From: Hoeflea sp. IMCC20628
GTDB lineage: Bacteria; Pseudomonadota; Alphaproteobacteria; Rhizobiales; Rhizobiaceae
Direction of reading: 5' to 3'
DNA length: 64,000 nucleotides
Assembly: GCF_001011155.1 (NCBI RefSeq)
Contig: NZ_CP011479.1
Span: 886,501 to 950,500, forward strand
Shown: positions 50,362-52,731 of the stretch, piece after piece
How positions within the stretch are numbered: position 1 is the first letter of the stretch
Layout: each line of letters opens with the position of its first letter
Translations under genes and position numbers: made by a program
The notes under the pieces: generated by a model
What the model was told of the DNA's origin: nothing
The model's input: the letters and a program-made list of their open reading frames with translations, nothing else
Database searches by the model: none

Positions 50362-52731
50362 ATGCTGATGGACGAGTTGAATGATGGTCTTTTTGGGCAA
50401 TATGAAAAGCATCCAGATGCATTGGCTTTCTATACACGCGATGGTGGATATCGGAAAAGCAGTATTGACCAGGCCGCGCGCAAGCTGACTGTTGATATTA
50501 ATGCGCTCGTTATATCGCTTGGTCCAAGTATAAATGATGTTGAGAGTGCCATATGTAAATTTCCAGACAATATAATTGCAGATTTATATATGACAATGCA
50601 TATGCCCTATGCGAATTACTCACGTGAAAATGAAAAAATATATGATTTCTTTAAAAGGAATTCAGAGTATTCAAAAAATTTCAAAACGCTGCACCGAAAA
50701 ATATTGGATTACATTGGTGTAGTGAGTATTGCTTATGAGGAGGGTGCTCCGGTAATGACAGACATTGAGTTTGACGTCGTCAAAGAGTTAGCTTTCAAGA
50801 TTGAAGGTCTCGCTTCAGAGGACCTAACCAAATTTTATGAAGCTGTTGGATCAAGGCTTTCAGAAAAATTTGAGAAGATCACCCACAAGGTGCCGATGCT
50901 GTCGCTCGACAACGCGTTTTCCGACGAGGACGTGCGCGACTTCGTCCATTCGGTCTACCGTTTCCTCGGGCAGTTGCCGGACCAGTCGATTGCGCTGACC
51001 GCCGAACCGAAAATTGACGGGCTGTCGATGTCGATCCGCTATGAGGACGGCAAGCTGGTGTCGGCTGCGACCCGTGGCGACGGCACCACCGGCGAAAACG
51101 TCACCGCCAACATCAAGACCATCTCCGAAATCCCCAAACAGTTGCCCAAGGGCGCGCCCTCCGTCGTCGAGGTGCGTGGCGAAGTCTACATGGCCAAGGA
51201 CGACTTTCTGGCGCTGAACGCGCGCATGGAGGCCGAGGGCAAGCAGACCTATGTCAATCCGCGCAACACCGCCGCCGGATCGTTGCGCCAGCTCGATGCC
51301 AAAATCACTGCCAGCCGTAAGCTTCGCTTCTTTGCCTATGCCTGGGGCGACATGTCGGAGATGCCGGCCGACACCCAGCACGGCATGATCGAGGTGTTTT
51401 CTGCCTGGGGTTTTCCGGTCAATCCGTTGACCAAACGGCTTCACAGTGTCGAGGAGCTGATTGCCCACTACAACACCATCGGGCTGGAACGCGCCGGGTT
51501 GCCCTATGATATCGACGGCGTTGTCTACAAGGTCGACCGGCTCGACCTGCAGGCCCGCCTTGGCTTCCGCTCGCGCAGCCCGCGCTGGGCCATCGCCCAC
51601 AAGTTCCCAGCTGAAAAGGCCGTCACCAAGCTCACCGCCATCGACATCCAGGTCGGCCGCACAGGCGCGCTGACCCCGGTGGCACGGTTGACGCCGGTCA
51701 CCGTCGGCGGCGTTGTCGTCACCAACGCAACGCTGCACAATGCCGAGGAAATCGCCCGGCTTGGCGTGAAGATCAACGATCTGGTCGAAATTCAGCGTGC
51801 CGGCGATGTGATTCCGCAGATCCTCAAGGTGGTCGAGTCGCCTGACGACGCGGTCGAATTCGAGTTTCCCAAAACCTGCCCCTGCGAGCTGAAGACCGAG
51901 GTCATCCGTGAGGAGACCGCGGGCGGTGTCGAAGGCGTCATCCGCCGCTGTTCGGGCGAATTTGCCTGTCCGTTCCAGCGCAAGGAACATCTCAAGCATT
52001 TCGTCTCGCGCAAGGCTTTCGACATTGACGGGCTGGGCGAAAAGCAGATCGAGTTCTTCTATGATGACACCACGCTGCCGATCAGGCAGCCTGCCGACAT
52101 CTTCACGCTGAAGGCGCGCGACGAAGCCAACGGCTTGCAGCGGCTGAAAAACCGCGACGGCTATGGCGACACCTCGGCGCAGAAGCTGTTTGACGCCATT
52201 GATGACCGGCGCACGATTGCGCTCGACCGGCTGATCTTCGGCCTCGGCATTCGTCATGTCGGCGAGCAGACCGCCAAGACGCTTGCCCGCGCCTATGGCG
52301 ACTGGGCCTCGGTGCATCAGGCGGCGATTGCGATTGCGGCTGGCGACAAGGCCGCTATCGAGGAGATGGACGCGCTCGACGATATCGGTCCGGCGGTGGT
52401 CGAATCCATCGGCCGTTTCTTCGGCGAGCCGCACAATATCGAGATGGTGGAAAAGCTGGTCGATGAACTCACCATCCTGGAAGCCGAAAAACCGGCGCAG
52501 CATTCCCCCGTCGCCGGTCTCACCGTGGTGTTTACCGGCAGTCTCGAAAAGATGACCCGGGATGAAGCCAAGGCGATGGCCGAGCGACTGGGCGCCAAGG
52601 TTGCCGGCTCGGTGTCGAAGAAGACCGACATCCTGGTTGCCGGGCCGGGTGCAGGCTCCAAACTCACCAAGGCGCAAGGCTTGGGCGTGCGCACCATGAC
52701 CGAGGACGAATGGTTCGAGCTGGTGGGCTGA
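50362..52731 (+). CDS. ligA: NAD+-dependent DNA ligase LigA with atypical N-terminus
   Basis: The 789-residue ligase seals nicks in DNA, forming a ligase-AMP at Lys217 (EPKIDG). Residues ~178-789 are ordinary: adenylation domain, OB fold ([13 protein letters not shown]), zinc finger (CPC...CSGEFACP, a CxC variant), helix-hairpin-helix region and C-terminal BRCT domain ([16 protein letters not shown]). Residues 1-115 are an extension absent from typical LigA (~670-720 residues). Residues ~116-172 look like a diverged domain Ia ([11 protein letters not shown] for the usual APEISDAEYD). Codons 1-172 are AT-rich (30% GC in one 60-base sample, against 58% further on). The start may be ATG 50362 or 50368. 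Confidence 0.9.

Follow-up and report, generated by a model that had tools for sequence, protein, structure and literature searches.

A native ligA gene with a foreign, AT-rich N-terminal part in Hoeflea sp. IMCC20628, and similar swaps elsewhere in the Rhizobiales

The window analyzed here is a 64,000-nucleotide stretch of Hoeflea sp. IMCC20628 (contig NZ_CP011479.1, positions 886,501 to 950,500), and all coordinates below refer to it. Its ligA gene lies on the plus strand at 50362..52731 as an open reading frame of 789 codons plus stop. The second ATG (50368), 7 nt behind an AGG, is by eye an equally good start and would give 787 codons; NCBIfam LigA models match the protein from residue 125 or later. 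The lengthening to 789 residues that had been predicted is thus real. Upstream lies recN (47745..49418, plus strand), the usual neighbor of ligA, which is homologous to recN of the relatives and stands in the same order in annotated Rhizobium. Between the two genes, and outside the swapped segment, an ORF of 206 amino acids on the minus strand (49430..50050) has DNA-level counterparts in most same-genus loci; around it, homology to the closest relative, L003, spans 48837-50181, and for most other loci it ends near 49950. A further ORF of 48 codons (50213..50359, plus strand) sits between the left breakpoint and ligA, within the foreign segment, and ends 2 bp 5' of the ligA ATG. Its GC content is intermediate (0.52), it gave no family match of note in Pfam, PHROGs, and NCBIfam and a best E of 4 among plasmids, and it may be spurious.

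The original prediction held that the 5' end of ligA is AT-rich and switches abruptly, near 50875, to a body of normal composition. Its two GC samples (18/60 at 50581-50640 and 35/60 at 51001-51060) were right when counted by eye, and the contrast extended to the whole gene: codons 1-169 have a GC content of 0.385 and a GC3 of 0.35, against 0.622 and 0.81 for the body. Of the 62,481 other windows of this length (507 nt) across the 64 kb, none had a GC content below 0.45 (mean, 0.601; sd, 0.035); thus, the dip at the 5' end of ligA lies far outside what chance would give. By GC content, the next-lowest stretch of the window is found at ~37900-38400 (0.446 over 500 nt).

The composition switch coincides with the loss of DNA homology to same-genus loci. 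When 16 such loci (L003-L018) were compared by blastn, homology restarted at 50869 in 7 loci and at 50875 in 9. Upstream, it extended to 50181 in four loci (L003, L005, L006, and L016) and ended earlier, at 49414-50127, in the other 12. Together, the blastn breakpoints and the alignment delimit a foreign replacement segment of 687 bp on the plus strand (50182..50868), the left edge of which is uncertain (~50127-50181); in its place, L003 carries 268 bp, consisting of a 25-bp leader and 81 codons. The predicted extent of the foreign DNA therefore stood at the right edge but not at the left, since the foreign DNA starts upstream of the ORF at ~50182 and has also taken the place of part of the 5' leader. 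Directly left of the left edge, TTTTCATTTG...TCTAAAAC is common to the window and its relatives in the alignment, which makes it probable that the native promoter region was retained. A consensus scan of 49400-51000 showed no promoter-like site on the plus strand and no terminator-like site, and three two-copy 12-nt repeats in this interval were of no note.

Downstream of the joint, the native ligA body (50875..52728, plus strand) encodes an adenylation domain with KxDG and OB, HhH, and BRCT domains, all above Pfam and NCBIfam cut-offs. At the DNA level, it is 82-89% identical to 14 same-genus loci and 75-78% identical to the two most distant ones. In a tree of 64 LigA bodies, it falls beside L003, nested inside its genus. 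The dN/dS of the body is 0.099 to L003 and 0.097-0.18 to 14 same-genus sequences, and 91 other pairs gave 0.06-0.26 (mean, 0.135). The body is thus under normal purifying selection, and it shows no sign of decay, being about as distant from three outgroups as L003 is. These results agree with the prediction that the body is an ordinary native ligase.

The genome (3 contigs, 99.99% complete) holds one LigA; a second match is confined to 54 residues in the BRCT region. When the canonical LigA N-terminus was searched for in the same genome, no leftover copy was found (best E, 0.415). Two ATP-dependent ligases are present, encoded by intact frames of 538 and 894 codons; in passages of PMC5052709, bacterial ligases of this kind are described as additional and not essential. 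With a single copy, an open frame, and a native body, the prediction that the 5' end of ligA was replaced by foreign DNA holds. The window LigA would then be the replicative ligase of the cell, taking up NAD+ through a foreign Ia domain and carrying the extension as a helical add-on.

The foreign coding part appears to comprise two pieces, an N-terminal extension of residues 1-112 (50362..50697, plus strand), predicted to be helical and of no known family, and a strongly diverged Ia (NAD+/NMN-binding) domain of residues 113-172 (50698..50877, plus strand). Searched alone, residues 1-174 matched no Pfam, NCBIfam, or PHROGs family. A two-row profile built from the window and Devosia matched 86 of 385 genomes of the class, including the window's own, at E ≤ 0.01, with most matches starting at about column 110; the matched loci inspected, 23 in all, were ordinary LigA N-termini. 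Judged by this profile, residues 110-174 appear to belong to the Ia family, and Ia would have been exchanged, not lost. The original prediction that the N-terminus is unlike LigA accordingly stands for residues 1-112, but residues 113-172 read as a very diverged Ia. The same N-terminus was seen in none of the 17 other same-genus genomes (a match in G009, at E = 0.48, is at chance level).

For the comparison of Ia residues, 111 of 120 extracted LigAs were used after duplicates were removed (104 nonchimeric and 7 chimeric). We take Y22, H/Y23, D32, Y35, and D36 (Escherichia coli LigA numbering) to be the functional residues of Ia. In the nonchimeric LigAs, Y22, D32, and D36 are present in 103 of 104, the sole exception being L117 (see below), and position 35 is Y in 101 and F in 3. 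The window protein keeps D32 and D36, has Phe for Y35, and keeps one aromatic of the Y22-H/Y23 pair. Both aspartates are retained in all seven chimeras. The window and Devosia domains have a loop that is one residue shorter and Phe at position 35, by which NAD+ use could be impaired.

As described in sections of PMC5052709, it is Ia that binds the NMN half of NAD+, and the enzyme needs this domain for self-adenylation but, once preadenylated, not for sealing. Because the new Ia keeps most of the residues that hold NMN, the chimeric enzyme should still be able to adenylate itself from NAD+.

In the structure model, the extension forms helices at 34-53, 57-65, and 69-84, with pLDDT block means of 56-82 over residues 31-80 and below 50 for 1-32 and 83-94. 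Ia helices are predicted at 101-126 and 134-151 (block means, 70-80). The mean pLDDT was 46.7 when residues 1-174 were modeled alone. Structural comparison with solved LigAs covers residues ~160-424 and leaves the predicted Ia helices out of the match. The Ia family PF22745 was not reported for the window protein, a result of little power since canonical L003 also stays below the cut-off (20 of 27 bits). A PHROGs ligase family was matched by six of seven module proteins (best E, 4e-8), the window module being the one without a match. When PADLOC models were run against the seven N-termini, one member matched PRTase_III-A at E 0.0043 and the window matched none.

The original prediction dealt with the chimera of the window. 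This chimera is real, and the same kind of swap occurs in other genera and families. When residues 1-174 were searched against 397 genomes of the order, one other case was obtained (E 6e-6), that of Devosia subaequoris DSM 23447 (genome G315, locus L038). Here, ligA lies directly behind recN, and its N-terminus is AT-richer than the body (GC, 0.49 against 0.62). Homology to the closest Devosia breaks off at position 5947 of L038 and is regained at 6406; the closest relatives, with 93% identical bodies, carry a canonical Ia. On the body tree, the D. subaequoris body falls inside Devosia; in 75 Devosia genomes, no other clear case of its type was seen. Among 393 other genomes of the window's family, the type-1 extension alone (that of the window and D. 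subaequoris) was found in none.

For an outlier survey, residues 1-300 of the native LigA of L003 were searched against the same 397 genomes, of which 387 matched. Outliers were taken from the best-scoring matches of these 387; 15 with low scores or several matches were picked by eye and followed up, and the N-termini of eight were read. In this way, the N-termini of G095 and G369 were found to have the common motif IN[QE]IADDWLLxYP. A profile built from both extensions and searched against 136 genomes of the family of G369 found G1273, G821, and G1231 besides G369. These five form type 2, which was searched for in the family of G369 and among the L003-query outliers. There are thus at least seven chimeras, two of type 1 and five of type 2. 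All five type-2 modules keep YY, D, Y, and D of Ia. In 7 of 7 loci, the module is AT-richer than the body and the in-frame joint lies shortly before the PMLSL motif. The GC contents of N-terminus and body are 0.43/0.66 in G095 and 0.46/0.65 in G369; with the body taken as the fetched part only, they are 0.32/0.42 in G1273, 0.39/0.55 in G1231, and 0.43/0.53 in G821.

DNA breakpoints were mapped in three chimeras (window, D. subaequoris, and G821) and partly in G369. In G821, a single-contig genome, canonical Ia is intact through codon 82 and the module follows in frame, with foreign DNA at 1498-2036. Homology to other Devosia restarts at 2037-2059 in two of the three compared loci and at 2560 in the third. 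The low GC content runs into the body; since some foreign body sequence came along, the donor in this case was probably a ligA gene, not a loose cassette. In summary, the N-terminal swap of LigA is recurrent in the order, with a similar replacement or insertion in at least six other genomes.

Two further candidates were not counted. G1226 (E 0.047 with the extension profile) was rejected, as no LigA frame was seen there. G022, which at first resembled another altered Ia, was set aside: its locus L117 (G022:C46:68200-71200, in a 2.0-Mb genome of the window's family) has a long LigA frame without an Ia motif, while a canonical one is found upstream in a different frame that runs into a stop. This may be a long insertion, a split ligA, or an assembly frameshift.

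The body tree (64 rows, body residues 61-440), in which G095 and G1273 have long branches, requires six label changes to accommodate the seven chimeras, all six forced by well-supported branches. As few changes were seen in 115 of 500 label shuffles, so the module label is not clustered. The label count mixes gains and losses, which it does not separate. Six forced and unclustered changes make repeated lateral exchange much likelier than a single origin with vertical descent. Identity to the window module is 24% for Devosia and 18-20% for the other five. When type-1 and type-2 profiles including Ia were compared, the probability was 95% over columns 54-174; with the extension only, the hhalign probability was 2.6% (E 0.018). 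Against shuffled controls, extension HMMs gave partial support: in one direction, the window ranked 1 and Devosia 5 of 2,002; in the other, two of the five ranked 1 and 6 and three ranked 99 or worse. Homology between the two types of extension is thus weakly supported. Against the PDB, the type-2 module profile gave a weak match to LigA Ia (best E, 0.003) and, over the extension, a match to an integrase domain (2kiw, E 0.014); one type-2 member matched DUF2674 (E 0.001).

The search for a donor covered 50,697 phage records and 72,556 plasmid records as well as pattern scans of IMG/VR, and it returned only ordinary Ia domains or chance matches. The modules used differed per collection, with G095 and G1231 never serving as separate queries. 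Phages and plasmids were both searched with residues 1-174 (tblastn) and with the 687-bp foreign DNA; the Devosia module, the G369 extension, and G1273 were searched in phages, and the G369 module and G821 in plasmids, in each case without a donor. The viral pattern scans, with single- or few-row queries and the N-terminal half of LigA, gave none either. Scans of genome contigs found only D. subaequoris, ordinary Ia domains, and chance matches.

An apparent extension-specific match, H152, was dismissed as chance, as its frame reads by eye like a large molybdopterin oxidoreductase. L153 and L154, IMG/VR contigs of ~179 kb, were rejected as donors because they encode phage LigAs with a canonical Ia. 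In both, the LigA frame lies directly behind a 339-codon frame, with an overlap of a few tens of bases, and by eye the latter looks like a reverse transcriptase. Plasmid ligA copies, among them those of two Bosea, Sphingomonas, and Sphingosinicella, were also considered as a source; the four N-termini read (two Rhizobium, Erythrobacter, and Salmonella) are canonical. The stretches of L111, L112, L114, and L115 (large plasmids of Bosea, Sphingosinicella, and Erythrobacter) show a ligA copy and no recN. In L114 and L115, the plasmid ligA adjoins genes for a dTMP kinase, an M50 peptidase, a PAPS-reductase-like protein, and an N-6 methylase, and in L115 also recJ and radA.

We consider it highly probable that the window ligA arose by recombination of the resident ligA with an AT-rich foreign ligA having the architecture of extension plus diverged Ia. 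One crossover would have fallen near the promoter or leader and the other in the conserved stretch just before the PMLSL-region junction; flanking the N-terminus, they would have exchanged the NAD+-entry module and kept the catalytic body. An artifact of assembly or contamination would account for the sharp change in composition, but the segment is embedded in a 4.84-Mb contig, one of three in the genome, the junction is open and in frame, and six further cases exist, including that of the single-contig genome G821; such an error is scarcely credible. Fusion of ligA to unrelated foreign DNA, with loss of the NAD+-binding domain, would fit the lack of a family match for residues 1-174 and the Ia helices left unmatched in the structural comparison. 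It is highly improbable given the profile match of residues 110-174 to LigA Ia, the D32, F35, and D36 seen there, and the frame that continues through the junction. The extension might instead be ancestral and lost in most lineages, as the shared position behind recN suggests, together with a start codon that overlaps the recN stop in two cases. Such vertical inheritance is quite improbable: the modules are AT-richer than the bodies throughout, the chimeras are scattered on the body tree, D. subaequoris stands alone of its type in Devosia beside canonical close relatives, and the G821 module sits behind an intact canonical Ia. This last arrangement, in which the native 5' part is kept next to the module, would suit the remnant of an integrative element that used the 5' part of ligA as its attachment site and brought its own 5' end. 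An origin of this kind is improbable, however, since, by eye, the stretches fetched for the seven loci show no such element between recN and ligA, and the breakpoints differ from case to case.

Recombination between resident and foreign ligA leaves the question of why swaps recur. The recurrence suggests selection, and the simplest form would be that LigA escapes a factor directed at canonical Ia by binding or inhibition, for instance an inhibitor, the toxin of a competitor, or a protein of a phage. This is the weakest step of the argument, and we regard escape as the driver of recurrence as doubtful. A swap of the cofactor-entry domain alone, in which the ligand residues are kept and most else is changed, is, speculatively, what ligand escape would be expected to look like. 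The rival to this step only is neutral exchange, in which AT-rich, fast-evolving LigA N-termini are donated by the same recombination without benefit and the chimeras drift. Neutral exchange explains the data as well as or better than escape, and we would put it at somewhat under an even chance. Selection on the body is unchanged, the cases are rare and scattered, and in both the window and Devosia, the right breakpoint falls within a conserved junction that favors crossover; at least seven cases among many hundred genomes is a number that could be neutral. Against it, all seven swaps bring the same uncommon architecture and none brings another ordinary Ia, an argument that is largely one of ascertainment because a swapped-in ordinary Ia would escape these searches. 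The open PMC literature, searched for LigA Ia, transfer, domain swap, and antagonists, gave no title on such N-terminal swaps among the papers listed, and no antagonist of LigA Ia was found.

For an essential replication gene present in one copy, the general expectation is resistance to piecemeal lateral exchange. In LigA, the replicative ligase, the cofactor-entry domain would have been exchanged repeatedly while the rest stayed native. Naturally swapped Ia domains would reveal how far this site can change and would point to a natural antagonist or donor pool not yet known. More tentatively, and with little confidence, Ia might be the swappable module of an arms race, in which an antagonist attacks the canonical Ia of the essential ligase and bacteria evade it by acquiring modules of extension plus diverged Ia from an AT-rich gene pool, with the tandem Ia of G821 as an intermediate.

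Compared with known systems, the window protein resembles LigA (NCBIfam PRK07956/TIGR00575) in its full adenylation, OB, HhH, and BRCT body with KIDG, its single copy, and its position behind recN, but it has ~112 extra residues and a diverged Ia where LigA has the canonical Ia N-terminus. The six other chimeric LigAs (D. subaequoris, G095, G369, G1273, G1231, and G821) share the AT-richer extension with diverged Ia at the same or a near junction; unlike the window LigA, that of G821 retains a canonical Ia in front of the module. In passages of PMC9503650, solo Nlig-Ia proteins are reported in 81 phages, which, as far as that account goes, show that Ia is treated in phages as a separate module. 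They resemble the window protein in having an Ia-type NAD+-binding domain and offer a precedent for Ia as an independent module; the Nlig-Ia model PF22745 was not reported for the window N-terminus alone and was reported, below the cut-off, for two of the five type-2 modules (best E, 0.00023). In contrast to these phage proteins, the Ia of the window is fused to an extension and a full ligase and resides in a bacterial chromosome.
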